Shown here: piece after piece, positions 47,873 to 62,016 of the stretch
Numbering within the stretch: the stretch's first letter is position 1
Layout: every line of letters begins with the position of its first letter
NCBI RefSeq assembly: GCF_000321005.1
Contig: NZ_HE578907.1
Span: forward strand, 1,294,059-1,358,058
Source of the DNA: Anaerococcus senegalensis JC48
GTDB lineage: Bacteria; Bacillota; Clostridia; Tissierellales; Peptoniphilaceae
Reading direction: 5' to 3'
DNA: 64,000 bases
Position numbers and translations under genes: made by a program
The notes under the pieces: generated by a model
The model's database searches: none
Told to the model about the DNA's origin: nothing
The model's input: the letters and a program-made list of their open reading frames with translations, nothing else

Positions 47873-48204
47873 TGGATACAATAAGTTTAACAATTCCACC
47901 AAATACAGTTTACCTAAAATCTATGAGACTTTTGGCAGCAAGTCTTGCAAGTGATATGGGCTTTGATATAGAAGAAGTTGAAGATATTAGAGTTGTTGTT
48001 TCAGAAGCAATAAATTATAAAATGAGCGATGAAGACATAAAAATAAATTTCTATATAAAAGAAAAGCTAATGAAAGTAGAAGTAATAGGAAAAGATAGGG
48101 AAATTGAAGAGGAAAATCTAAAAATTAAACAAATTATCCTTGAGCAATTGGCAGATAGGGTAGAAGTTGTTGAAGATAAGATTATACTTACAAAAGAGAA
48201 ATAA
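47872..48204 (+). CDS. RsbW-like anti-sigma factor, shortened
   Basis: 110 residues, against about 140-160 for RsbW or SpoIIAB. The N-terminal half resembles the RsbW helix-N-box region (LAASLASDMGFDIEEVEDIRVVVSEAIN), but after the SEAIN the usual Asn-Ala-x-x-His is not seen, and the D-x-G-x-G ATP-lid motif and downstream G-box are missing. Kinase activity is therefore doubtful. It overlaps the STAS stop by one base and ends 2 bp before the sigma gene. Identified mainly by context and partial similarity. Confidence 0.75.
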   Translation: MDTISLTIPPNTVYLKSMRLLAASLASDMGFDIEEVEDIRVVVSEAINYKMSDEDIKINFYIKEKLMKVEVIGKDREIEEENLKIKQIILEQLADRVEVVEDKIILTKEK

Positions 48205-48206
48205 TT

Positions 48207-48977
48207 ATGGCAAAAACAAAAGCTTCTCTTGAAAGAAAAAAAGAGATCAAAGAAAAATTTGAACAATTTTATAAAACAAGGGACAAGGACCTAAGAAATG
48301 AGCTAATAGAAGATCATATGTATATAGTCGATATTCTTTCTAATAAATACATTGGAAAAGGAATAGAAAAAGATGACCTTTATCAAGTGGCATCTCTTGG
48401 CCTAATCTATGCCATTGATAGGTATGATCCGTCAAAAGGATACGAATTTTCATCCTTTGCAACCCCAACAATAATGGGAGAGCTCAAAAGATACTTTAGG
48501 GACAAAGGTTGGGTTATAAGAGTTCCAAGAAGAATTCAAAATTTGTATAAAAAAATAAATGTAGCAAAAAAAATTCTCCCCCAAGAACTCCAAAGAACCC
48601 CAACAATAAAAGATATTGCAGCCTATCTTGGAGAAGATGAAGAAACAATTCTAGAAACAATAGAAGCAAGTAAGGTCTATACTCCTCAAAGTTTGGATAT
48701 GAAATACCAAGTTCAAAAAGGGGAAAACTCTGTGGATTTATCCGATATGATTGGAGAAGATGATAAAAATTTTGATTCCATAGAATTAAAAGATTTGATA
48801 GAAAAATCTACAGAAAGACTAAATGATTTGGAAAAACAAATTTTAGAATTAAGATACTATGAAGGAAGAACCCAAATAGATATAGCAAATAAACTCTCAA
48901 TCTCACAAATGACAGTATCTAGAATTGAGAAAAAAATTCTTCAAAAATTCACATTAGAAATGCAAAAAATGCAATAA
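48207..48977 (+). CDS. RNA polymerase sigma factor, SigB/SigF/SigG subfamily
   Basis: 256-residue sigma-70 family factor. Region 2 contains DLYQVASLGLIYAIDRYDPSKG and FSSFATPTIMGELKRYFRDKG, followed by WVIRVPRRIQNL, the arrangement of the SigB/SigF group; region 3 covers TPTIKDIAAYLGEDEETI and region 4 ends with the helix-turn-helix QIDIANKLSISQMTVSRIEKKIL. It is the last gene of gyrA-STAS-RsbW-like-sigma and is followed by a strong terminator. General stress or envelope role is inferred; the exact regulon is unknown. Confidence 0.93.
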   Translation: MAKTKASLERKKEIKEKFEQFYKTRDKDLRNELIEDHMYIVDILSNKYIGKGIEKDDLYQVASLGLIYAIDRYDPSKGYEFSSFATPTIMGELKRYFRDKGWVIRVPRRIQNLYKKINVAKKILPQELQRTPTIKDIAAYLGEDEETILETIEASKVYTPQSLDMKYQVQKGENSVDLSDMIGEDDKNFDSIELKDLIEKSTERLNDLEKQILELRYYEGRTQIDIANKLSISQMTVSRIEKKILQKFTLEMQKMQ

Positions 48978-48980
48978 ATT

Positions 48981-49016
48981 AAAATCACCTATTGAAATAA
49001 ATAGGTGATTTTTTTA
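48981..49016 (+). terminator. Terminator after the sigma factor gene
   Basis: AATCACCTAT/ATAGGTGATT stem with loop TGAAATAA-type sequence and TTTTTT, 4 bp after the stop. Confidence 0.92.
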
Positions 49017-49500
49017 TAAAAATAAATTTATTATAAAAAAAATAGTAAATATAAAAATCTATCAGACTGTTGACAAACTAAAAATTATCCCATTTCGACC
49101 AGATAAATAACCGTTGATTTCGGTTGTTTATACCGATTCATCGTGTGCAAGAAGCGAAGAAATCTCATGAGATCTCTCCGTGCGTTCGTTTCACTCACAC
49201 TAAAACATGTTTGCTTTGCAAACTTCTTCATGATTTCTCACTTAGTTTTAGGGATGATTGTGCCAAATTAAGGCACAATCATCTAGTCGAGATGGGCTGT
49301 AGCGTAATTTTATTTTTAAATTAACAATGAATAACTAAACTGACTTTGTCTACGCTCTGATCTATTTTTTAGTTTTAAATTGATAGAATTTAAAATTAAC
49401 TAATTAATCAATATAAATATAAAAATTAAAAATAAAAGCTAAAAAATAAATTGCACTCATAATATAGAAAATGTATGGATTTTATTTATTTTATACCAAA
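49017..49500. other. 484-bp gap between convergent genes
   Basis: Holds the composite repeat (49089-49296), otherwise only AT-rich sequence. A 66-codon frame across the repeat (49124-49324) is not called. Confidence 0.7.
49089..49296 (+). repeat. Long structured interspersed repeat, composite copy 3
   Basis: The right part (49169-49296) is a plus-oriented copy from GAGATCTCTC to GTCGAGATGGG that lacks the ATAACCG hairpin; the other hairpin is present with loop AAATTAA. The left part (49089-49168) is an inverted fragment that starts CCCATTTCGACC and contains the ATAACCG hairpin on the opposite strand. So the two halves are rearranged relative to the other long copies. Confidence 0.85.
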
Positions 49501-49528
49501 AAATCCCCCTTATTTTTAGGGGGATAAT
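49501..49528 (-). terminator. Terminator of the lipoprotein gene
   Basis: Perfect ATCCCCC/GGGGGAT stem with loop of about 9 nt; on the minus strand it is followed by TTTTTTGG and lies directly after the stop. Confidence 0.85.
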
Positions 49529-49529
49529 A

Positions 49530-50510
49530 TTATTTGTCATCTCCTGGATACATTGATGATGAACCTGGATACATTTTTGCAATTTCTTTTATAACAAGTT
49601 CAATATCATCTAAACTTTTTTCATCTAATTTCTTTTGAGCTCTTAGATAAGCTAAGTCAATATCGTTGTTTGTAATTTTTTCAATAGATTTTTTTGAAAA
49701 TTTATATTTATTTTTTAGTTCTTTTCTAAAAGAATCATATTCTTCTTTATTTTCAGAAAATTTATCTATTGGTCTATTTTTGATATCTATACTTGTTTGT
49801 TCTTTAGAATTTTCTTGTGTATATTTTTTTTCATTATTTTCATTATTTTGGTTTTCTTCATATCCATTTGGATATTTTTCCTTTAATTTTTGGCTAGCTT
49901 TTACAATATTTTCGTTATATGTTGCGTATTTATCATCGTTATATATTTCAAAAAATATATTTTTGAGCTCTTTATTTGGAACTTGTGATGCATCAAAACC
50001 ATTTTGACCAATATAAGTTCTAGCATTTGTGTAATGATCAACTCCTTCATCATTACTGTAAATCCAATTATTTACAACATCTTCTACAGTAGTTTCTGGA
50101 TAGAACTTACTAGTGTTTGGATTTTCTCTAGCAATTTGATTAAACATTAAGGTTAGTTTATTCCAAAATCCAGTTTTTTCGCTTAAATCATTTGCATCCT
50201 TTTGATATTTTTTAATATCTTCATCACTTAATCCATCAACAAAACTTTGATCAAATCCTCCTAAATCTATCATAGCCTTTTTTATGTCATCTATAGATAA
50301 TTGGTTAGAAGAATCTATATTACTTGTATTTGATGATGACAAATTATTAGATTTGTAATCAACACTCTCGCCAATTAGTAAATTGTTTTTGTTATTAGAT
50401 TCACTACTAACACTACTATTTGATGAATTACTTTTATTATCTTTGTCAAAAATACCACATGATGTTAAAACAAGTGATAAACAAAGAACAAGTCCTATTT
50501 TCTTTTTCAT
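49530..50510 (-). CDS. Putative lipoprotein of unknown function
   Basis: 326 residues with a lipoprotein signal peptide (lipobox LTSC, Cys about residue 18) and a Ser/Asn-rich linker. The rest has two segments of similar shape: about 80-150, ending NPNTSKFYPETT, and the C-terminal 60 residues, ending KMYPGSSSMYPG, each with a helix followed by a YP motif. The middle (about 210-265) is Asn/Glu/Lys-rich. Family not recognised. GGAGG 6 nt before the ATG. Opposite strand to surrounding genes on this arm. Confidence 0.78.
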   Translation of the reverse strand: MKKKIGLVLCLSLVLTSCGIFDKDNKSNSSNSSVSSESNNKNNLLIGESVDYKSNNLSSSNTSNIDSSNQLSIDDIKKAMIDLGGFDQSFVDGLSDEDIKKYQKDANDLSEKTGFWNKLTLMFNQIARENPNTSKFYPETTVEDVVNNWIYSNDEGVDHYTNARTYIGQNGFDASQVPNKELKNIFFEIYNDDKYATYNENIVKASQKLKEKYPNGYEENQNNENNEKKYTQENSKEQTSIDIKNRPIDKFSENKEEYDSFRKELKNKYKFSKKSIEKITNNDIDLAYLRAQKKLDEKSLDDIELVIKEIAKMYPGSSSMYPGDDK

Positions 50511-50876
50511 AAATCCTCCATATTTTTCTTGTTATTTATACTTTACCCTTTTTATATAAAATTTTAATATATTTCTTATGTATAAGTATTTTAAATAAAA
50601 AAATTTCATAATTTATAACTTTATCCTATTAGTATGCAAATAGTAAAAACCTTATCATTCCAACATTAATCTAAGATATTCATTAAAAAATAAATTATAA
50701 AAAGTGGAAATTTCTGGTAATAAATGTATAAATATAAAATTAGAAAAAATATTATTTCTCAAAAAAATCTATTGTTGTTGAAGTTTTAAGAAATAAATAA
50801 GAATTGACAAAAATATAAATATAAATTATAATGAATCCATATAAATCAAAAAATAAAAAGAAAAGAGGAGAGAAGG
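50511..50876. other. 366-bp gap with the oppA promoter
   Basis: AT-rich; divergent promoters face both ways. The oppA promoter (50804-50832) is the only clear signal. Confidence 0.6.
50804..50832 (+). promoter_or_regulatory. oppA promoter
   Basis: Consensus TTGACA, 17-bp spacer, TATAAT. The start codon is about 45 bp downstream. One of the strongest promoter matches in the window, fitting an abundant binding protein. Confidence 0.88.
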
Positions 50877-53006
50877 ATGAATGTAAAAAAAGTTTTCTCA
50901 CAAGCTTTTGCTCTTGGATTGGCTTTGACACTTACAGCTTGTGGCGGTAATAATGACAAAGACAATAACGGATCAAATGCCGGAGCAGACAATAATGCTA
51001 GTAACGAACAAGCTAAGGGTGAAGAATTTAAAAAGCAAACTAATGATGATACCCTTGTAGTAGGGGTTGATTCACTTGGTGGAGAATTCATCCAAGGTTT
51101 TAATAACAGCCAAAACGACGTAAGAGCTAGAGAATTTATGGGAATTCAAGGTGCTGTTGGTTATGACACTTATGTTAAAGATAGAAGTGGAAAATATGTA
51201 ATCAACAAAACTGTTCTTGATGGTGAACCTCAATCAAAAGAAAATTCTGATGGATCAAAGACTGTTACTTTTAAAATTAAAAAAGATTTAAAATGGTCTG
51301 ATGGTAAACCTGTAACTGCTGATGATTATTTATTTACAGCACTTTTACACTCACCACAAGATTATTCTCTTATAACAGGATCTACTGAAATTGGTGGAGA
51401 TTCTCTAAAAGGTTACAACGAATTTAGAGAAGGAAAAACAGAAGAATTTGAAGGTGTTAAAAAAATTGACGACCAAACATTTGAAATAACAATTTCAAAT
51501 GATTTCTTACCATACTTTGAAGAGGAATCTCTAAAAGCAATGAACCCAAGACCAATTCATTATATAGCTCCAAACTTAACAGTTGATGGATCTAAATTTG
51601 CTCTTAAAGATGGCTATAAATTATCAGATGATGACAAAAAATCTTTTATTGAATCACTTGATAAGCAAATTGAAACAGAAAAATCTTCTTATGATGAAGA
51701 AGTAAAAGAAGCTGGAGAAGAAGATCCAGAATACAAAAAAGAACATGAAGAAAAATTAAAAACTCTTGAAGATAAGAAAAAATCTGCAGAAAGCGGAAAT
51801 GATATAGATCCTACAGAAATGCTTGTAGAACAAGCTATGCTTTTTGATGCAAATGACTACAGAAAAGCACCAAAAGTTACTTGTGGACCTTACAAATTTG
51901 TTTCATTTGAAAATAATATGGTTAAAATGGAACTTAATGACCAATATGCTGGAGATTTTGAAGGAAACAAAGCCACAATTCCAAATGTTATTATACAAGT
52001 TATAAATCCAGAAATATCTGTAGACTTAGTTAAAAATGGGGATATAGATGTATTCGAAGAAGAAATGAATGGTTCAAGAATTGACCAAATAAGAAAAGCT
52101 GCTGACGAAAAGAAATTACAATATGTAGCTTATGACAGAAATGGTTATGGATGTTTATCATTCTTAGACGATAGAGGACCTACTCAATATAAAGAAGTTA
52201 GACAAGCTATAGCATTCTTGATGGATAGAAACGACTTCGTACAAAACTATGCAGGTGGATACGCAGTAGTAACAAACGGAATGTATGGTTCAAGTCAATG
52301 GATGTATAAAGAAAGAGGAGCTGACGTAGAAGCTAAACTTACAAACTATACATTAAATATTGACGAAGCTAATAAGAGATTAGATAATTCTCCATACAAA
52401 TTTGAAAAAGACGGAAAAACAGCTTGGGATGCTAATAAAGCAGCTGAACAATATAAAAATAATGCTGACAAATTTGATTATTACAGATACGATGAAAATG
52501 GTAAAAAATTACAAGTTAACCAATTTGGTGCAAAAGAATCTGAAATTACAACACTTCTTTCAAACCAATTACCAGACAATGCTAAACAAGCAGGGCTTGA
52601 ATACAACGTTCAAGCAGGTGACTTTAATACCCTTCTAAACTACAGAGAAAATCCAAAAGAAGGAGATAAGGCAGAATATACAGCATTTAACATGGGACTT
52701 AGCTTTGGATCACCATTTGATCCTTTCTACCAATATAATAGTAAAGGATTTGACAATAAAACAAAAACAAATGACCCACAAGCTGACAAAATAACAGAAG
52801 AATTAAGGAGAGTAAAACCAGGTGAAAAAGAAGCTTACCTAGATAAATGGGAAGAATTCCAAAAATGGTACAATGATTACCTACCAGAAATTCCACTTTA
52901 TTCTAACCAAATCCACTCATCAGCATCATCAAGAGTTAAAGGATTTGATGGCTTAACACCAGAATGGGCAACATCTTGTCAAATAAACCAAATGAGTCTT
53001 AAATAA
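50877..53006 (+). CDS. oppA: Oligopeptide-binding lipoprotein OppA
   Basis: Extracellular peptide-capture subunit of the Opp importer. 709 residues, longer than E. coli OppA (543): lipoprotein signal (lipobox LTAC, Cys about 22), acidic Asn-rich linker, then the family 5 solute-binding fold (DLKWSDGKPVTADDYLFT; EVRQAIAFLMDRNDFVQNYAGG). A Lys/Glu-rich helical insertion at about residues 255-310 partly accounts for the extra length. It has its own promoter and terminator, so it is made apart from oppBCDF. Confidence 0.95.
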   Translation: MNVKKVFSQAFALGLALTLTACGGNNDKDNNGSNAGADNNASNEQAKGEEFKKQTNDDTLVVGVDSLGGEFIQGFNNSQNDVRAREFMGIQGAVGYDTYVKDRSGKYVINKTVLDGEPQSKENSDGSKTVTFKIKKDLKWSDGKPVTADDYLFTALLHSPQDYSLITGSTEIGGDSLKGYNEFREGKTEEFEGVKKIDDQTFEITISNDFLPYFEEESLKAMNPRPIHYIAPNLTVDGSKFALKDGYKLSDDDKKSFIESLDKQIETEKSSYDEEVKEAGEEDPEYKKEHEEKLKTLEDKKKSAESGNDIDPTEMLVEQAMLFDANDYRKAPKVTCGPYKFVSFENNMVKMELNDQYAGDFEGNKATIPNVIIQVINPEISVDLVKNGDIDVFEEEMNGSRIDQIRKAADEKKLQYVAYDRNGYGCLSFLDDRGPTQYKEVRQAIAFLMDRNDFVQNYAGGYAVVTNGMYGSSQWMYKERGADVEAKLTNYTLNIDEANKRLDNSPYKFEKDGKTAWDANKAAEQYKNNADKFDYYRYDENGKKLQVNQFGAKESEITTLLSNQLPDNAKQAGLEYNVQAGDFNTLLNYRENPKEGDKAEYTAFNMGLSFGSPFDPFYQYNSKGFDNKTKTNDPQADKITEELRRVKPGEKEAYLDKWEEFQKWYNDYLPEIPLYSNQIHSSASSRVKGFDGLTPEWATSCQINQMSLK

Positions 53007-53016
53007 TAAAATTTTT

Positions 53017-53050
53017 AAAAAGAAGTCATACTAAGTGTGGCTTCTTTTTT
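53017..53050 (+). terminator. oppA terminator
   Basis: Stem AAGAAGTCATAC/GTGTGGCTTCTT with loop TAA and a T-run, 11 bp after the stop. Confidence 0.88.
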
Positions 53051-53108
53051 ATATGAAAAATTACTTTTTAACAAAATATATTTTTCAATATATTCAAACC
53101 TAGCTAAG

Positions 53109-53145
53109 CCCATCTCGAGCGGATGCAATGAGTCGAGAGATCTCT
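53109..53145 (-). repeat. Intermediate unit of the repeat family
   Basis: CCCATCTCGAGC, then ggatgcaatga, then GTCGAGAGATCTCTT: reverse-oriented, slightly longer loop. Confidence 0.8.
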
Positions 53146-53233
53146 TTCTTATATTTAGATAATAATTTATTTTTCCCTTGGTTTTTACATAGATTTTTTT
53201 TACCTACTTTATTTCTAGATTTGCTTAATCCAT

Positions 53234-53262
53234 GAGATCTCTTGACTTAGCTTGAGATTGGA
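53234..53262 (+). repeat. Degenerate short unit of the repeat family
   Basis: GAGATCTCTTGACTTAGC followed by TTGAGATTGGAG, plus-oriented, several substitutions. Confidence 0.55.
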
Positions 53263-53551
53263 GTTTTCTACATTAAATTTCAAACTAAAGAATTATTTTT
53301 TATTTTAAATTAAGATTTTTTAAAAAAAGTGAAAATTTAAATAAATTTGAAGAAACAAATAAAGGATAAATTCCTAGTCATTTCTAGCTTGTCGTAAAAT
53401 CTCTTTGTTAACCTTGGCGTAAAATTTGTTTTATTACTAATTAATAGTGAATTTATTTTTTTGTATTTCTAGTTAGAATATGGTTTTCTTTATTTTCTTT
53501 TTTTATAAATTCATTATTTTTTATTTTTATTAATTTTTAAAAAATTGTGTA

Positions 53552-53610
53552 AATGTTATAAACATTAGAGTGTTAATGTACTATAGAATGAATATTCTAT
53601 TAATATTCAT
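53552..53610. promoter_or_regulatory. Cluster of inverted repeats upstream of the opp operon promoter
   Basis: AATGTT-ata-AACATT (53552-53566), ACATTA/TAATGT (53562-53579), and ATGAATATT/AATATTCAT with a 5-bp spacer (53588-53610). They lie 80-140 bp upstream of the promoter. Operators for an unknown regulator are possible, but AT-rich palindromes arise easily in this genome. Confidence 0.35.
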
Positions 53611-53688
53611 AGAAGTGATTTATTTCTCATTATTAATGAATCTTTAAAAATAATTATCAATCTTTATAAATTTAAGAAAAATTTTACA

Positions 53689-53717
53689 TTGACAAATTGT
53701 TGATATTATATTATTAT
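53689..53717 (+). promoter_or_regulatory. oppBCDF promoter
   Basis: TTGACA, 17-bp spacer, TATTAT. The leader to oppB would be about 165 nt. A second TATAAT at 53799-53804 has no good -35. Confidence 0.65.
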
Positions 53718-53890
53718 TATGACTATGATATGATAAGTTTATTCTATGCTGATTTTTTATATTTATTTATAAAATTTTATAGTTAATGTTTTCCTTTGTA
53801 TAATTTATGGGAAATTATTTCATATTTATCAAATTAAAGTGAAAAATAAGTAAATGAGTAAATTTAAAAACATTTAAGGAAGGGATGAAA

Positions 53891-54853
53891 ATGTTAAAAT
53901 ACATAATAAAGAGAATCATTAATTTGATTCCAGTAGCCATAATTATTTCTATCTTGGTTTTTGTACTTTCTAAATCTATGCCTGGCGATCCTGTTTTGGC
54001 AATGATGCCAAAGGATGGAAGAATGACCAAGGCTCAACAAGAACAAATGTATAAAAATCTTGAAAAACGTTATGGTTATGACAAATCGTTGCCAGAACAA
54101 TATTTTATGTGGATGGGAAGAAGTTTGAAGGGGGATTTTGGTGAATCTACCCAAGTTAAAAGACCTGTTAAGGAATATCTTTCTGAACCACTTAAAAATA
54201 CTATTTTACTTAATATTGGTTCAACCCTAGTTTCTTTTATACTTTCGGTTTTAATAGGAATAAGGTCAGCTGTACATAAGGGTGGGCCTTTTGATAAATT
54301 CTTCCAGGTATTTACCTTGGTTGGTATTTCCTTGCCTACATTTTTTATAGGTTTATTTTTGATATTTTTATTTGCCTTTAAGTTAGGATGGTTTCCAGCA
54401 AATGGTATGCCTAGAAACAATAATTTTGGTGAATGGTTAAAATATTTAATTTTACCAACTTTAACTTTAACTTTTGGATCTATGGCTTCTATTTCTAGGT
54501 ATGTTAGAAATTCAATGCTAGATTCACTTAATGAAGATTATATTAGAACTGCAAGAGCAAAGGGATTAAAAGAAAAAACTGTAATTTATTCTCATGCTTT
54601 TAGAAATGCTCTTATCCCAGTTGTAACTGCTATGACTTGGGCAATTCTTTCTATGTTTTCAGGTTCAGCTATAACTGAAACTATTTTTGCATATAGGGGA
54701 ATTGGAAATATTCTTATAAAATCTGTTTTGGCTCAAGATTATAATGTTATTCTTGCTTTAACTATGTTTTATGCAATTTTGACACTTCTTGGAAACTTGA
54801 TTATGGATATTGCTTATGCACTTGTTGATCCTAGAGTAAAATTGGAGGCTTAG
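53891..54853 (+). CDS. oppB: Oligopeptide ABC transporter permease OppB
   Basis: Inner-membrane channel subunit. 320 residues from the second of two close ATGs (53885 and 53891), which has the better spacing from AAGGAAGGG. Six predicted membrane helices; first helix NLIPVAIIISILVFVLSKSMPGDP, and the cytoplasmic EAA loop DYIRTARAKGLKEKTVIYSHAFRNALIP near residues 215-245. Ends DPRVKLEA as in other OppB. Two bases from oppC. Confidence 0.95.
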   Translation: MLKYIIKRIINLIPVAIIISILVFVLSKSMPGDPVLAMMPKDGRMTKAQQEQMYKNLEKRYGYDKSLPEQYFMWMGRSLKGDFGESTQVKRPVKEYLSEPLKNTILLNIGSTLVSFILSVLIGIRSAVHKGGPFDKFFQVFTLVGISLPTFFIGLFLIFLFAFKLGWFPANGMPRNNNFGEWLKYLILPTLTLTFGSMASISRYVRNSMLDSLNEDYIRTARAKGLKEKTVIYSHAFRNALIPVVTAMTWAILSMFSGSAITETIFAYRGIGNILIKSVLAQDYNVILALTMFYAILTLLGNLIMDIAYALVDPRVKLEA

Positions 54854-54854
54854 T

Positions 54855-56750
54855 ATGAAAGATGAATTAAAAAAATCATTTAAATCTTTTGGGAAATTAG
54901 TTCTTTCTTTATTTACTTTTGGAACAAATGCAAATGAAAGTGAAGAAGTTTTGGCAGATGTTAATCCTAAAAATGAAAATGAAGCTTTGAAAGAAGATGC
55001 TATTACATCTCCTGGAAAAATGGCTGTAAAAAATTATTTTAGAAACCCACTTGGAGTTATAGGTCTTGTATTACTTCTTGGAATTATTCTTGTCGTTTTT
55101 ATTGGATCAGCAATAATTCCTTTTAATCCTTATCAATCTGAAGGTAATCTTATAAATGTATCTCCAGGTTCTGGGTATATGGATTTTCCTTCTGAAATGC
55201 AAAAAGAAGGCGTTGAGAAAGTTTCTGTAGGAAATACTTTTGGTGTTGGTCTAACTAAGGAGAAAAATTATTATATCTGGGGAAAAAATAACGAAGATAA
55301 TGTTATGAAAATTCCAGAAGATATTAAAGAAAAACTAGATGGTAAAAAAATAAAAGATGTTGCAGCTGGAGATAGACACATTCTTGTTGCAACTGAAGAT
55401 GATGAAGTTTATGGTTGGGGTAATGATTCCTTCCAACAAACAAAACTTCCACCAATGCAAGAAAGTCAAATAAAAGAAGAAGGAATTAAAAAACTTGGTG
55501 GTGGAGTTCAATATTCTGTAGTTTTAACAGAAAAAAATAATATATTTGTTTGGGGTTCTACAATGAACTCAAGGCTTGATCTTATTCCAAAAGAAGTTCA
55601 AGGAAAAGTTGTAGATTTTGATACAAGTGGTTCAAATATTTTGGCTGTATTAAAAGATGGATCTACAAAACTACTTGGTGTAAGAGGAGCTGAAATTGAT
55701 GTTGGAGCTCCTGATGAAATTAAAAATGATAAGCTTAAAATTAAAAAAGTTGCCCTAACTACAAATTCTGCAGCAGCCCTTGATAAAGATGGAAAACTTT
55801 ATGTATGGGGTCCTTCTAGAGATAATTTATCTGGAAAAAATGTTCCTGAATTTAAAGGAAAAGTTAAAGATATAGTTGGAGGCACAAACCATTTTACAGC
55901 CCTTGATGAAAATGGAAAACTTTATTCTTGGGGAAATAATAATTATGGTGAAGCTTCTTGTCCTAATGGAAAATATGAAAAAATATTTTCAGGATATTTT
56001 AACAACTATGCTGTAAATAAAGATAATAAAATAGATACTTGGGGACTAAAAGGATTTAAATTTGGTTCTGATGATCAAGGTCGTGATATCTTTACAAGAT
56101 TAATTCACGGTGGAAAGATGACTATAATAATTTCTTTCGTATCAGTTATTATCCAAGTTGTTCTTGGTGTAATTATAGGTATGGTATCAGGTTATGCTGG
56201 AGGAAAAGTCGACAATGTTCTTATGAGAATTACAGAAATTGTTCAGTCTTTCCCATTCTATCCATTAATTATTACACTTTCTGCCCTACTTCCTGTAAAT
56301 ACAAGTCAAAACACAAGACTAATGATGATTATGGTTTTACTTGGAGTTATTGGATGGACAGGAATAGCAAGGCTTGTTCGTGGACAAATTTTAGCTGAAA
56401 GAGAAAGAGATTATGTAATAGCGGCAAAAGCTTTGGGTGTTACAAATTCATCAATTCTTGTTAGACACATACTTCCAAATATTCTTTCAATAATAATTGT
56501 AAATGCTACTCTTGGTTTTGCTGGAAACCTCCTTACAGAAGCAGGACTTTCTTTCTTAGGTTTTGGTGTCCAAGAACCAATGCCATCTTGGGGAAATATG
56601 ATGACAAGTGCCCAATCATCTGATGTAATTAATATTTATTGGTGGAGATGGGTAATACCAGCACTTGCAGTATTTTTGGCAGCATTTTCAGTAAACTTAA
56701 TTGGAGATGCCCTAAGAGATGCAATAGATCCAAGATCAAATGAGAGATAG
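54855..56750 (+). CDS. oppC: Oligopeptide ABC transporter permease OppC with an inserted RCC1-like propeller
   Basis: 631 residues, about twice a normal OppC (about 300). Residues 1-60 are cytoplasmic, helix 1 spans 66-89, then residues about 118-400 hold seven RCC1-type repeats, each with a hydrophobic strand followed by a WG-type motif (WG near 142, 188, 233, 318, 359 and 396; the fourth, 252-275, has LG instead). Standard OppC resumes at GSDDQGRDIFTRL (404 on), with the EAA loop ERDYVIAAKALGVTNSSILV near 517-536. Topology puts the propeller outside the cell, where OppA docks. Confidence 0.93.
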   Translation: MKDELKKSFKSFGKLVLSLFTFGTNANESEEVLADVNPKNENEALKEDAITSPGKMAVKNYFRNPLGVIGLVLLLGIILVVFIGSAIIPFNPYQSEGNLINVSPGSGYMDFPSEMQKEGVEKVSVGNTFGVGLTKEKNYYIWGKNNEDNVMKIPEDIKEKLDGKKIKDVAAGDRHILVATEDDEVYGWGNDSFQQTKLPPMQESQIKEEGIKKLGGGVQYSVVLTEKNNIFVWGSTMNSRLDLIPKEVQGKVVDFDTSGSNILAVLKDGSTKLLGVRGAEIDVGAPDEIKNDKLKIKKVALTTNSAAALDKDGKLYVWGPSRDNLSGKNVPEFKGKVKDIVGGTNHFTALDENGKLYSWGNNNYGEASCPNGKYEKIFSGYFNNYAVNKDNKIDTWGLKGFKFGSDDQGRDIFTRLIHGGKMTIIISFVSVIIQVVLGVIIGMVSGYAGGKVDNVLMRITEIVQSFPFYPLIITLSALLPVNTSQNTRLMMIMVLLGVIGWTGIARLVRGQILAERERDYVIAAKALGVTNSSILVRHILPNILSIIIVNATLGFAGNLLTEAGLSFLGFGVQEPMPSWGNMMTSAQSSDVINIYWWRWVIPALAVFLAAFSVNLIGDALRDAIDPRSNER

Positions 56751-56758
56751 GTGTAAAA

Positions 56759-57763
56759 ATGAAAAATTTACTTGAAATAAACAAACTCCATACCTACTTT
56801 AAAACAAGACGTGGTCTTATAAAAGCTGTAAATGGAGTATCATGTACAATTGAAGAAGGGAAAACTTTGGGCCTTGTTGGAGAAAGTGGATCAGGAAAAA
56901 GCCAAACTGCTATGAGTATTTTGCAACTTTTTGAACCAAACCAAAAAATCTATAGTGGAGAAATTATTTTTGATGGCAAAAAAATTTCTGACTTTAATAG
57001 GTCTCAAATGGAAAAAATAAGGGGAAATGATATTTCCATGATTTTCCAAGAGCCTATGAGTTCACTAAACCCAGTTTTTACAGTTGAAAAACAAATTTCA
57101 GAAGTTTTAATTCTTCATAAACATATGAATAAAAAAGAGGCTGCAAAAAGAGTGGAGGAATTACTTGCTCAAGTTAAAATTCCTAATCCACATGTTGTTG
57201 CCAAACAATATCCTTTCGAGCTTTCTGGTGGAATGAATCAAAGGGTTATGATTGCCATGGCCCTTGCTTGTGAACCAAAATTATTAATAGCAGATGAGCC
57301 AACAACAGCTCTTGACGTAACAATCCAAGCTCAAATTCTAAAATTAATGAATGAATTAAAGGAAAAGAAAAATACATCAATTTTATTTATAACTCACGAT
57401 TTGGGAGTAATAAATCAAATGGCAGATGAAGTTGCTGTAATGTATTGTGGACAAATTGTAGAACAATCTCCAGTCGATTATATTTTTAAACACGACATAA
57501 CAGATTATAACCACCCATATACAGTTGCTTTATTAAATTCTATTCCTGCAATTACAAGTGATAGAGATGAAAGACTAGATATAATCCCAGGTTCTGTTCC
57601 ACATCCACTTAATCTTCCAGACGGATGTAAATTTGCAGATAGGTGTAAATATGCAACTGACAAATGTAGGTCTGAAATGCCAGAGCTTGTAGCAATAAAT
57701 GAAAATCAAAAAATAAGATGCCACTACCCAAATAGAAAGGAGAGAGAAGATGGAGAAGAATAA
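56759..57763 (+). CDS. oppD: Oligopeptide ABC transporter ATP-binding protein OppD
   Basis: 334 residues, normal OppD length: Walker [11 protein letters not shown] (about 41-50), Q-loop [12 protein letters not shown], signature [15 protein letters not shown], Walker [14 protein letters not shown]-loop FITHD, and the C-terminal oligopeptide-family extension with four cysteines spaced as in iron-sulphur-like motifs ([16 protein letters not shown] ... RCHYP). The stop overlaps the oppF start by 14 bp. Confidence 0.96.
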
Positions 57764-59366
57764 TAAAAAAGTCTTATTTAAAATAAGAAATCTTAAAAAA
57801 TATTTTCCAATCAAGAAAAAATCTATCTTTTCTAGGGGAGCAAATGAATACGTTCATGCAAACGAAAATATTTCCATAGATATATTTGAAGGTGAAACAT
57901 TTGGTTTGGTTGGAGAAAGTGGTTGTGGAAAATCTACCTTTGGTAGGACAATTCTTCAAATTTATGAACAAACAGAAGGAACAACCCTTTATTATGGAAC
58001 AACTCTAGATAGACTTGCCCCATCTTATATGGGAAAAGATATACTTGATATACCAAAGAAGTTCCCTAGCTATGACAAAGAAGTTGAAACTCTTCATATA
58101 ATTTATGATGGACTAGAAAGAACAGATGATGAGGAGAAAATAGCTGAACTAAACGAAGCTGCTATGCATCAAAGAAGACTTCTACAAGAAGAATATGAAA
58201 ATATGATGAGAATTGCAGGAGGTCTTCTTGCTAGTGACAATTTAGAAGAAATTACAAGTATTCTAGATGACTATTATAAAAAAATTAAAGAAAGATCAAA
58301 AATTTTACTTCAAATCAAAAAAATTAAAGAAAAAGATGAAGTAAGGATTAGAGATAAAAAAGAATTAAAAAATGCTATCCTAAACGATCCAAAATATAAG
58401 GAGCTTTTAAATAAAAAAGAAGTTCTTGATAAGGAAGTTTTAGAAAAAGAAAAAGTTATATCTTCTAAAAAAGAAGAGTTAAAATCAAAAGAACTTTTTG
58501 AAAAATTCGAAAGTTTTGTTGATGATGGAATAGATTTATCAAGACTAACAAATGAAGAAATGAGAGAGCTTAGAAAAGATCTTCAAATAATTTTCCAAGA
58601 TCCTTATGGTTCTTTAGATACAAAAATGACAGTTGGAAATATAATTGGAGAAGGTGTCTTGGGTCATGGACTTTTTAAATCTAGAAAAGAAGCGGGCTAT
58701 AACGAATACATTCAAGATGTAATGAATCAATGTGGGCTTGCTCCATATTTCATTCACAGATATCCTCACCAATTTTCGGGAGGACAAAGACAAAGAATAG
58801 GAATAGCTAGAGCTCTTGCTTTAAATCCAACCTTTATAGTTTGTGATGAAGCTGTATCAGCACTTGACGTTTCAATTCAATCTCAAATTATAAATTTATT
58901 GCAAGATTTAAAAACAGACTTAAACCTTACCTATCTTTTCATAACTCACGATCTTTCAGTAGTAAAATATATATCTGATAGAATCGGGGTAATGTATTTG
59001 GGAGTTATGGTTGAACTATCTGATTCAGATAGAATTTTTAAAAATCCACAACATCCTTATACAAAAGCACTTTTACAAGCAATTCCAAGAACAGATGTTG
59101 ATAAAGGACAAGAATTGCAAACTATAGATGGAGATATACCATCAGCCGTTAAACCACCAAAAGGATGTAGATTCCATACAAGATGTAAATATTGCATGGA
59201 TATATGCAAACAATTTGAACCAGAATTAAAAGAAGTAGAAGAAGGTCATTTTGTAGCTTGTCACTTGATGGATGTATCAGAAAAAACAAAACAAGAAGCC
59301 TTCGAAAAAAACGAAGAAAAAAGGCTTAAAGAAGAACATGAATTAGCTAAGGAAGCTAATCTATGA
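57750..59366 (+). CDS. oppF: Oligopeptide ABC transporter ATP-binding protein OppF with a long insertion
   Basis: 538 residues, versus about 320 for typical OppF. Walker A GESGCGKST at 55-63; the Q-loop IIFQDPYGSLD does not come until about 280, because residues about 84-257 are an extra charged, coiled-coil-prone segment. After it the protein is standard: signature FSGGQRQRIGIARAL, Walker B IVCDEAVSALD, H-loop FITHD, and the cysteine-containing C-terminal domain (GCRFHTRCKYCMDIC), then a 25-residue Glu/Lys tail. Catalytic motifs are intact. Confidence 0.93.
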   Translation: MEKNNKKVLFKIRNLKKYFPIKKKSIFSRGANEYVHANENISIDIFEGETFGLVGESGCGKSTFGRTILQIYEQTEGTTLYYGTTLDRLAPSYMGKDILDIPKKFPSYDKEVETLHIIYDGLERTDDEEKIAELNEAAMHQRRLLQEEYENMMRIAGGLLASDNLEEITSILDDYYKKIKERSKILLQIKKIKEKDEVRIRDKKELKNAILNDPKYKELLNKKEVLDKEVLEKEKVISSKKEELKSKELFEKFESFVDDGIDLSRLTNEEMRELRKDLQIIFQDPYGSLDTKMTVGNIIGEGVLGHGLFKSRKEAGYNEYIQDVMNQCGLAPYFIHRYPHQFSGGQRQRIGIARALALNPTFIVCDEAVSALDVSIQSQIINLLQDLKTDLNLTYLFITHDLSVVKYISDRIGVMYLGVMVELSDSDRIFKNPQHPYTKALLQAIPRTDVDKGQELQTIDGDIPSAVKPPKGCRFHTRCKYCMDICKQFEPELKEVEEGHFVACHLMDVSEKTKQEAFEKNEEKRLKEEHELAKEANL

Positions 59367-59551
59367 AAAGACCAGTAGATCCTTTCAAAGGAAAAACTAA
59401 AGAAGAAATCTATGAAAAAGAAGAACTTTTAGAAAAAGATAATCTGGAAAAACACGACAGATTTGCCATGTTTTTGGCAGCTATGAAAGTCTTTATGCCA
59501 CCAGTATTATTAATACTTCTACTTTTTACATCCTTAATATTTTTCTTTTAA
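59363..59551 (+). CDS. Small single-pass membrane protein at the end of the opp operon
   Basis: 62 residues. The start overlaps the oppF stop by 4 bp (ATGA), which indicates translational coupling. A charged N-terminal half (about 35 residues, Lys/Glu-rich) precedes one transmembrane helix at about 38-62 (PPVLLILLLFTSLIFFF). No family recognised. Possibly an accessory subunit of this Opp system, judged only from its coupling to oppF. Confidence 0.75.
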   Translation: MKRPVDPFKGKTKEEIYEKEELLEKDNLEKHDRFAMFLAAMKVFMPPVLLILLLFTSLIFFF

Positions 59552-59623
59552 GTTTATAAAACAAAATTAAGGGTAATAAACTAAAAGAGGAAATAGACGA
59601 ATGAAACTAGGAAAGGAAGTATT

Positions 59624-59869
59624 ATGAGTAAATTTGAATTATATTTTAAACCAGATTGTCCATATAGTTTAAAAGTTTTAAATTATATGAAAGATAATAA
59701 AATATTAGATTTTACATCTTATAATATAGAAGATGGAAGATGTGGAGAAGAAAATAAAAAAGCCCTTGAAGAAATAGGTGGCAAAGTCCAAGTTCCATTT
59801 ATGGTTTTTGGTGATGAAAAAATGTATGAATCTGATGATATAATAGAATATCTAAAAGAAAATTATTAA
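59624..59869 (+). CDS. Glutaredoxin-like protein (CPYS motif)
   Basis: 81-residue thioredoxin-fold protein of the glutaredoxin/GST N-terminal type: redox motif CPYS near residue 14 (first Cys only), cis-proline motif QVPFM, and C-terminal SDDIIEYLKENY helix. With a single Cys it would act monothiol-style. AAAGGA upstream; an 8-codon frame (59601-59627) overlaps its start. Single gene with its own terminator. Confidence 0.88.
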   Translation: MSKFELYFKPDCPYSLKVLNYMKDNKILDFTSYNIEDGRCGEENKKALEEIGGKVQVPFMVFGDEKMYESDDIIEYLKENY

Positions 59870-59874
59870 AATTA

Positions 59875-59902
59875 TGCCAGCGGCTTATACTGCTGGCTTT
59901 TT
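59875..59902 (+). terminator. Terminator after the glutaredoxin-like gene
   Basis: GCCAGC/GCTGGC stem (bulged) with loop GGCTTATACT-like and TTTTTT. The ribosome-binding site of the next gene follows directly. Confidence 0.85.
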
Positions 59903-59916
59903 TATTGGAGAAAAAA

Positions 59917-60303
59917 ATGAAAAAATTAATATATAGAGATGACAAAATTTTTGAAAATGAAAGAATGACTTATAAATTGGATGGCAAGTACAATGTATTG
60001 TGTCCTAGTGGTAAATTAGTTGCAAGATTTAAAATAAAAAATTTATTTAGCCTAAGAGGAAAAAAACAAGCTGTAATAGGAAACTTAAAAATAGAAAAAA
60101 TGAAAGATGAACCTATAAGTGAGGCTAAAATTATAAATAGACAAATGAAGTTAATAAATCATGAAAATGAAATTTCCCTAATAAAAGACGATGAATTTCT
60201 AGGAAGTTACGATTTTGAAAATAACACAATAGAAGTATCAGAAGACGAAGGACTTGTAGTAAGCGTGTTTTTTGCCCTTAAAAAATTGGAGGAAAATAGA
60301 TAA
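59917..60303 (+). CDS. Hypothetical protein, 128 residues
   Basis: Start at ATG 59917 (MKKLIYRDD), six bases after GGAG; a TTG at 59905 lies inside that site and is rejected. The predicted structure is a series of short beta strands with turns (YNVLCPSGKLVARFKI; EISLIKDDEFLGSYDF; NTIEVSEDEGLVVSVFFAL), reminiscent of small barrel proteins of the LURP-one/tubby-like type, but I cannot confirm that. No signal peptide or membrane helix, so probably cytoplasmic. Confidence 0.7.
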   Translation: MKKLIYRDDKIFENERMTYKLDGKYNVLCPSGKLVARFKIKNLFSLRGKKQAVIGNLKIEKMKDEPISEAKIINRQMKLINHENEISLIKDDEFLGSYDFENNTIEVSEDEGLVVSVFFALKKLEENR

Positions 60304-60353
60304 ATTAAAAAAATAGAGATAAAAACTTTAGCAATAAAATAAGTCTCACCCTC

Positions 60354-60399
60354 ACCCATCTCGACTAAATGAGCGAAGCGAGTGCATGGAGATATCTCA
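60354..60399 (-). repeat. Intermediate unit of the repeat family
   Basis: CCCATCTCGAC, then aaatGAGCGAAGCGAGTGCATGG, then AGATATCTC. The GAGCGAAGCGAGTGCATGG part matches the outer left arm of the long form read in reverse. Confidence 0.8.
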
Positions 60400-60435
60400 T
60401 GGATTAAGTAAATATTGAGAAAATATTAAAACCAA

Positions 60436-60463
60436 GAGATCTCTCGACTACGCTCGAGATGGG
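60436..60463 (+). repeat. Short hairpin unit of the repeat family
   Basis: GAGATCTCTCGAC, tac, GCTCGAGATGGG: the plus-oriented short form with a perfect CTCGA/TCGAG stem. Confidence 0.85.
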
Positions 60464-60600
60464 TTTAGCTACGTTTTAATATTAGAAATTAATTATTAAA
60501 TCAAATAAAAGAAAGAATAAATTCTAATATATCTAAATTTTCTAGTGTAAATAAAAAAATAGAAATAAAAACTTTAGCAATAAAACAAGTCATACCCTCA

Positions 60601-60811
60601 CCCATCTCGACCAGATGATTGTGCCTTGATTTGGCACAATCATCCCTAAAACTAAGTGCAGATTTATAACCGTTGATTTAGGGTATAAATCCTGAAAACT
60701 AGTGCGAGAACACGGAAGAATTTACCTAGTAAATGAGTTTTTATAAGCACGAGAAAGTTTGCCTAAAAAACGGGTTTTAGTATGAGCAAAGCGAATGAGT
60801 GGAGAGATCTC
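60601..60811 (-). repeat. Long structured interspersed repeat, copy 4
   Basis: 211 bp, reverse orientation. The GATGATTGTGCC hairpin is perfect with loop AAATCAA (read on the minus strand); the ATAACCG hairpin has decayed on one arm (AGGGTATAAA in place of CGGTTATAAA). The rest follows copies 1 and 2 closely. Confidence 0.9.
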
Positions 60812-60867
60812 ATGGATTACATAAAAATAGATAAAATATCAAAACAAAGAAATCTATACATTTTAAA

Positions 60868-60918
60868 GAAATAAAAAATCGATTAGGAAAATTTTAAGTT
60901 TTTCTAGTCGATTTTTTT
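60868..60918 (-). terminator. Terminator of the TM2 gene
   Basis: AAAAAATCGA/TCGATTTTTT outer stem with an inner AAAATT/AATTTT region, followed by a T-run on the minus strand; 6 bp after the stop. Confidence 0.8.
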
Positions 60919-60924
60919 ATTTTT

Positions 60925-61374
60925 TTATAAATATATATTTCCAAATTTATCAGCAGGTTTTGTAAGACCTATTATGAATTCAATAAAAGCTATAATTCCT
61001 GGTATAAATGTCCAGCAGAAAATTAAATAAACTATTCCAGCACCAGTTTTACCTGCATAAAACTTGTGAGCTCCAATTCCACCTAGGAAAAATGCCAACA
61101 ATACATAAGCTAATTTGTTTACAGGTCTTCCTTGATTATAATAATTATTAGTTACATTACCATTTCCATCCATAGTTATAGCTCCAATCATATTATCTTG
61201 TGTTTTATCTTCTTTTAATTTACTAACTAAGTATCCGTTTTCGTCCTTAAAGGTTCTTACCTTATCTCCTATTTCAGGAATAAAATCTACATCTGAAAGA
61301 TTTACTCTTACAACGGAACCATCATTAAGGCCTACAACAACACTATCAGCTTCGATTTTGATTATTTCGCCCAT
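60925..61374 (-). CDS. TM2-domain membrane protein
   Basis: 149 residues. N-terminal part (about 1-60) is a small beta-rich segment (MGEIIKIEADSVVVGLNDGSV) ; the C-terminal part is a TM2 domain, two helices flanking a short loop (KLAYVLLAFFLGGIGAHKFY, then GAGIVYLIFCWTFIPGIIAFIEFIIG). The conserved G-x-x-G-x-H-x-F-Y pattern (GGIGAHKFYAG) is intact. Function of bacterial TM2 proteins is poorly known. Single-gene unit. Confidence 0.87.
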   Translation of the reverse strand: MGEIIKIEADSVVVGLNDGSVVRVNLSDVDFIPEIGDKVRTFKDENGYLVSKLKEDKTQDNMIGAITMDGNGNVTNNYYNQGRPVNKLAYVLLAFFLGGIGAHKFYAGKTGAGIVYLIFCWTFIPGIIAFIEFIIGLTKPADKFGNIYL

Positions 61375-61509
61375 AATTCCCCCTTATTTTCTATAATTAT
61401 ATCATTATTTACAAGAAAAAATAAGAATAAATGAAAAAATCCCCCAAGTTGCCCTATAGTTGCTAGCTTTTTTTGAAAAAATCTTTAAAATAATAGAAAA
61501 GGAGGAAAT

Positions 61510-62016
61510 ATGATTGGAGAAAAAATTAAAAATAAAAGAAAAGAATTAAATTTAACCCAAGAATATTTGGCAAAAGAATTAAATATTTCAAGACAAGCCG
61601 TATCGAAATGGGAAAAAGGAACAAGCGAGCCTTCCATGGAAAATCTTGTGAAATTATCTGGAATTTTTGGAGTAGATATAAAATATTTTAAAAATAATGA
61701 TGATAAAGAAAATGAATCTCTTATTTCAAAAATTTTTTGGAATTTTTTATATGCAGCTATAGGCCTTGTTTTTTATTTAATATATTATTTTGGAATAATG
61801 GAGGGGGTCTTAAATAAAGATCCAAAACAAATGCCCTTTTTAATACTTACAATTTTTCTAGCATTTTCAGTAATAGCCTTTCCTCAAGCTATTAAAAATA
61901 TGGGAGATAGATTAGAAAAAATAGATTATTTTACATTTTCAAAATTAGTCTTGCCAGTAATTTTTATAATTTCACCCCTTATTGTTTTTTATTATATTTT
62001 TAAAAATGAAGAATAA
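61510..62016 (+). CDS. XRE-family regulator with C-terminal membrane helices
   Basis: 168 residues. N-terminal helix-turn-helix of the Xre/Cro type (KRKELNLTQEYLAKELNISRQAVSKWEKG, residues 11-39) ends near 60; the C-terminal half has three hydrophobic helices (about 76-95, 108-125, 138-160), so it is probably a membrane-bound repressor. Ribosome-binding site GGAGG 6 nt upstream. Target unknown. It is convergent with the restriction gene, separated by a bidirectional terminator. Confidence 0.88.
   Translation: MIGEKIKNKRKELNLTQEYLAKELNISRQAVSKWEKGTSEPSMENLVKLSGIFGVDIKYFKNNDDKENESLISKIFWNFLYAAIGLVFYLIYYFGIMEGVLNKDPKQMPFLILTIFLAFSVIAFPQAIKNMGDRLEKIDYFTFSKLVLPVIFIISPLIVFYYIFKNEE

Follow-up and report, generated by a model that had tools for sequence, protein, structure and literature searches.

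A conserved Opp-type peptide importer subtype with a predicted RCC1-type propeller in its permease OppC, found in Anaerococcus senegalensis and relatives

Results

Organization of the opp operon

The window analyzed here is a stretch of 64,000 nucleotides from Anaerococcus senegalensis JC48 (contig NZ_HE578907.1); coordinates are positions in this window, and all features given below lie on its forward (+) strand. One operon codes for a binding protein, two permeases and two ATPases: oppA (50877..53006; a substrate-binding lipoprotein of 709 aa, SBP_bac_5 E 1.6e-36, whose best match among solved structures is 9p48, an OppA), oppB (53885..54853; a permease of ordinary length, 322 aa, BPD_transp_1 E 4e-43), oppC (54855..56750; a permease of 631 aa), oppD (56759..57763; an ATPase of ordinary length, 334 aa) and oppF (57750..59366; an enlarged ATPase of 538 aa). 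Both ATPases contain ABC_tran and oligo_HPY domains. The gene order is kept in relatives, with some loci cut by contig ends. A four-cysteine Fe-S pattern was present in all 46 OppDs and in 42 of 46 OppFs, and the A. senegalensis ATPases have the Fe-S-site Cys spacing of E. coli DppD, as given in passages of a report on E. coli Dpp (PMC12136057). Judged by its domains, operon structure and four-cysteine pattern, the operon belongs to the Opp/Dpp peptide ABC importers, with peptide import as its predicted function. Its products missed the NCBIfam Opp4 equivalog cut-offs (OppC, 309.6 against 350 bits; OppB, 308.7 against 450; OppA, 154.3 against 650).

A promoter-like sequence (50804..50832, 12/12 match) lies 5′ of oppA, where the total of promoter-like sites did not exceed that in shuffled sequences, and a terminator-like hairpin (59876..59897) lies 3′ of oppF. 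The gap between oppA and oppB (53007-53884) consists of 878 AT-rich bases, in which the operon strand has no ORF that reaches 60 aa and a promoter-like match of 11/12 lies at 53689-53717; it is much shorter in many relatives. No Rfam match was obtained in this gap or elsewhere in 48000-62000.

RCC1-type repeats in OppC

In a single open frame, OppC combines OppC_N (residues 52-98, 35.8 bits against a cut-off of 23.9) and BPD_transp_1 (residues 438-627, 106.5 bits against 26.4) with approximately 290 extra residues, which form RCC1-type repeats between TM1 and the GSDDQGRD motif (residues 118-400, 55206-56054). Such repeats had been proposed in a preliminary description, and a Pfam search of this segment bore them out: RCC1_2 matched at E 2.4e-39 (123.9 bits against a cut-off of 22, six stretches at E up to 1) and RCC1 at 1.9e-8, together with WD40_RLD at 7e-38 (131 bits, under its cut-off of 150). 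By sequence, the closest solved structure was UVR8 (4.4e-23), followed by HERC2, RCC1-type proteins and BLIP-II; a propeller profile built from 18 rows matched UVR8 at 3.9e-40 and BLIP-II at 3.1e-28. All 18 OppCs scanned had RCC1 repeats between OppC_N and BPD_transp_1. When the Pfam model PF00415 was used to scan the A. senegalensis genome, no match was found, and 14 control genomes were likewise empty; protein and alignment queries did match. An assembly error is ruled out, as the open frame was present throughout the genus (31/31 genomes) and recurred in many assemblies beyond it.

Repeat boundaries were set by eye, with starts at residues 118, 165, 210, 252, 295, 336 and 373, and each blade was scored against an HMM of the other six in 18 homologs, with 900 shuffles (720-797 scored). 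In A. senegalensis, blade 1 (55206..55346) scored 22.6 bits against a shuffle maximum of 11.0 (median of the homologs, 26.3 bits), blade 2 (55347..55481) 33.7 against 5.2 (median 30.2), blade 3 (55482..55607) 21.1 against 6.3 (median 21.6), blade 5 (55737..55859) 31.2 against 6.9 (median 24.9) and blade 6 (55860..55970) 36.3 against 9.3 (median 26.6). The short blade 7 (55971..56045) was moderate, with 13.1 bits against 8.9, a median of 12.2 and a lowest score of -0.7 among the homologs. Blade 4 (55608..55736) scored 3.1 bits, below its shuffle maximum of 5.5 (median 7.4), and is placed by spacing and conserved glycines. The earlier count of seven repeats holds in that seven could be placed and six exceeded every shuffle, but not for blade 4 as a scoring repeat; we take the OppC loop as seven repeats, one of them degenerate.

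Seven repeats would close into a seven-bladed disc. The propellers of UVR8, HERC2, RCC1 and BLIP-II have seven blades, and OppC resembles these proteins in repeat family and, with the weak blade 4 counted, in repeat number; however, its repeats sit within a permease of the membrane, one blade (blade 4) has degenerated and the ring is a prediction. Among 50 OppCs, 31 of the 42 columns conserved in at least 85% of sequences (residues 93-403) are Gly, Trp or Pro. No catalytic-looking set was found among columns kept at this level, and an enzymatic function of the propeller is unlikely.

Location of the repeats relative to the membrane

A single transmembrane segment, TM1 (residues 66-84, 55050..55106, hydropathy 3.09), precedes the repeats, and no TM-like stretches were detected by hydropathy inside them. 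The permease core, which starts with GSDDQGRD and makes up the rest of the protein (56064..56747), aligns to residues 84-301 of E. coli OppC. The distance from TM1 to the GSD/GTD motif was 302-337 residues in 50/50 propeller OppCs and 23-29 in 26/26 plain ones, which agrees with the insertion site originally proposed. According to the passages on E. coli DppC (PMC12136057), the TM1-TM2 region lies on the periplasmic side and the EAA helix, located between TM4 and TM5, on the cytoplasmic side. Since the equivalent region of DppC is periplasmic and only one TM segment precedes the repeats, these are placed outside the cell, as had been predicted, and a cytoplasmic placement is ruled out.

Expansions in OppF and OppA

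In plain opp operons of the order (19 operons at 18 loci), the gene order is the same, OppC has 294-344 aa, OppF 323-393 aa and OppA 562-635 aa (17 found). Operons with the propeller differ from these in two further proteins. The A. senegalensis OppF contains an insert at about residues 93-258 (58026..58523), between Walker A and the Q-loop, as delimited in an alignment of 17 long OppFs. The Walker A to Q-loop distance was 187-229 residues in 44 of 49 OppF-assigned ORFs from propeller loci (those measurable) versus 41-47 in 19/19 plain OppFs. With a profile of the insert, matches were obtained in 63 of 249 genomes of the order, each of which belongs to the 64 genomes that have a propeller OppC, either whole or partial; in the missing one (G200), the permease match stops 540 bases from the contig end.

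In OppA, four of nine anchor-to-anchor segments were longer in propeller loci, with no overlap in length. The most enlarged segment (residues 199-337, 51471..51887) has 138 residues in A. senegalensis, and measured 71-191 residues in 46 propeller loci versus 47-52 in 17 plain loci. OppB and OppD showed no comparable change. The OppF insert, the propeller OppC and the enlarged OppA occur together. Because these differences separate two clades, the OppF and OppA expansions represent few events, whatever the number of sequences compared.

Occurrence of propeller OppCs

Among named organisms, the best matches to full-length OppC came from Anaerococcus species (up to 94% identity). Propeller OppCs were found in 31/31 genomes of the genus, one of which (G013) has two copies, and in 44 of 130 genomes and 10 of 39 genera of the family, where all 13 outside the genus were confirmed as OppC. 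In the order, 70 of 249 genomes matched at 1e-10: 63 had complete copies in ORFs of 605-670 aa, one match (G223) was a fragment and six were partial matches in other ORFs (455-639 aa). At 1e-30, 17 of 391 genomes in the class sample matched, 16 of them in ORFs of 609-665 aa and one (G421) in an ORF of 1952 aa; all nine copies outside the order were confirmed. The phylum sample gave 17 matches in 398 genomes, 14 in ORFs of 555-642 aa. Twelve of these 14 were new, and 11 were confirmed, which covers all of the new ones but G917. The other matches comprise G662 and, in G956 and G990, proteins other than OppC. Confirmed copies span 16 family codes (f1, f12, f14, f15, f16, f18, f22, f33, f43, f59, f77, f82, f112, f121, f154 and f158).

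Several loci contained additional components. The second propeller OppC of G013 is in an oppB-oppC-oppA cluster (L094, 3548-9150) with no adjoining oppD or oppF in the fetched stretch, raising the possibility that the ATPases encoded in the first operon serve this cluster as well. A tandem pair of propeller-type opp operons was present in G187 (L104, 4015-19001), and two oppA genes preceded a single propeller-type operon at L093 (27-4898) and L102 (9419-13934). The matches in G990 (L126) and G956 (L127) are large RCC1-type-repeat proteins other than OppC, a possible source of the propeller.

Evolution of the permease

When the permease part alone was used as a query against the 249 genomes of the order (threshold 1e-75), 115 places were found, which fell into two classes. 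The high class comprised 65 places with at least 338 bits, all in ORFs of 605-670 aa, and none of these high-scoring permeases was without a long frame. The low class comprised 50 places with at most 320.3 bits, all in ORFs of 295-347 aa; six matches cross a stop.

A permease tree was built from 75 sequences, 50 with the propeller and 25 plain (18 from plain loci of the order, with L139 omitted, and seven OppC relatives). Propeller OppCs fell on one side of a branch as one clade (support 100/98), and a single change accounted for their distribution in all 200 bootstrap trees (100%); quick trees split likewise for OppB (98) and for OppD (91, with a long-branch warning). The propeller permeases apparently have a single origin. 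Within the propeller clade, genomes of the family of A. senegalensis fell into two widely separated parts, suggesting that operon transfer, or an old duplication followed by loss, is likely.

Comparison with known transporters

Solved relatives of this importer include E. coli DppABCDF and OppBCDF (PDB 8z1v and 8z21) and M. tuberculosis OppABCD (8j5q). The permease profile matched E. coli OppC (9.3e-60), DppC (1.2e-53) and Rv1282c (2.1e-50), which places them in the same family, and the A. senegalensis OppF matched 8z21_D at 4.2e-86. However, E. coli OppC and DppC (302 and 300 aa) have no propeller, and OppF and DppF (333 and 334 aa) have no long insert. Enlarged ATPases are also represented by the Mycoplasma Opp models NF043079 and NF043078 of NCBIfam (561 and 649 positions), and residues 161-527 of OppF align to positions 190-556 of NF043079; the model for OppC of Mycoplasma is 307 positions long. 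With the A. senegalensis insert alone, no NCBIfam model matched, and no Opp model matched for two relatives.

A folded domain on the outer side, in a permease loop and in contact with the binding protein, is known from the maltose importer (MalF P2). That domain belongs to another importer family and has another fold, and for the OppC propeller a contact with OppA is a prediction.

The preliminary description knew of no OppC with this architecture, and no published OppC with RCC1 repeats was present among the literature matches listed, in a search that lay outside preprints and most subscription journals. The passages with stray matches in PMC10928387, PMC2394750 and PMC10710014 concerned different subjects.

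Discussion

Opp importers supply bacteria with peptides and carry peptide signals in Gram-positives. The operon described here goes beyond a single unusual OppC: the transporter subtype is conserved, and its OppF and OppA carry expansions that match the propeller. The recurrence of the propeller and the enlarged OppF in relatives from many families of the phylum makes it look like an undescribed importer type, and we read the operon as an undescribed Opp subtype, a variant within the Opp/Dpp importers.

What the propeller does can be approached through its location and its evolution. Median divergence was 1.99 for the propeller and 1.93 for OppA, compared with 0.92 for the permease, and in 40 operons the distances of the propeller tracked those of OppA most closely (r 0.959, partial correlation 0.534, permutation p 0.001). 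Distances of the OppF insert also showed a partial correlation with those of the propeller (0.448, p 0.001); since this insert is intracellular, part of the OppA-propeller signal is shared speed. The outer location, the enlarged OppA, the OppA-like divergence and the closest correlation with OppA suggest a docking and gating role, and of the functions offered earlier, holding or gating OppA fits best, while no tested result points to a host or peptidoglycan ligand. We consider the chances about even that, in this conserved Opp/Dpp subtype, the propeller is a platform on the outer side at which OppA docks and is gated. The disc would lie beside the docking place of OppA and hold loaded OppA over the pump entrance, and the enlarged OppA segments would form part of the contact. 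According to the passages on E. coli (PMC12136057), DppC pairs with DppF, so the disc and the OppF arm should share one pump half; there the arm would adjust ATPase coupling or bind a cytosolic partner. Several observations count against the docking role: a scoop motif of DppB already reaches into DppA, as the same passages describe (PMC12136057), related importers work without a propeller, the OppA enlargement amounts to few events and blade 4 is weak.

The fast evolution of the propeller would also suit a receptor or anchor that positions the importer at a partner different from OppA; candidates are the cell wall, a peptidase outside the cell and other proteins of the surface. RCC1-type propellers are versatile binding platforms, and the best PDB matches include an inhibitor (BLIP-II) and a photoreceptor (UVR8). 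However, no partner gene was common to the operon neighborhoods (none beyond 7 of 46 loci, save an antisense open frame in 12), and this explanation, which we regard as possible but doubtful, leaves the enlarged OppA unexplained. The co-occurrence of propeller and OppF insert, on subunits whose counterparts in E. coli Dpp contact each other according to the passages cited above (PMC12136057), and their partial correlation could instead reflect one transmembrane control device, in which the disc would sense either a signal from outside or the state of OppA, and the arm would in turn control ATPase activity. The physical path between disc and arm is presumed, the same correlation is expected from any two fast-evolving parts of an operon, and the idea overlaps with docking; we consider it unlikely. 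That the propeller is a decoration kept by chance, with no role in transport, would agree with the existence of plain Opp importers and with a donor at hand, given that the phylum also has RCC1-type repeats in different, larger proteins. The propeller is retained at all 65 places where its class of permease was found in the order, and the spacer length is retained in all 50 OppCs, which makes this very improbable.

A conserved subtype that combines a large folded domain on the presumed docking side with a co-inherited ATPase insert constitutes a natural experiment on the holding and gating of binding proteins and on their coupling to ATP consumption. For genome annotation it is relevant that, within this phylum, an ORF of about 600-670 aa with an RCC1 match may code for OppC. 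A bolder and rather unlikely proposal is that these operons represent an importer class with its own outside receptor, in which a seven-bladed OppC disc would detect either an external ligand or the state of OppA, to which the coiled arm on the contacting ATPase OppF would respond within the cell. If this were true, the propeller, the arm and the enlarged OppA would constitute one transmembrane control device that is absent from plain Opp importers, and a disc that acts as a receptor would represent a new mode of importer control.
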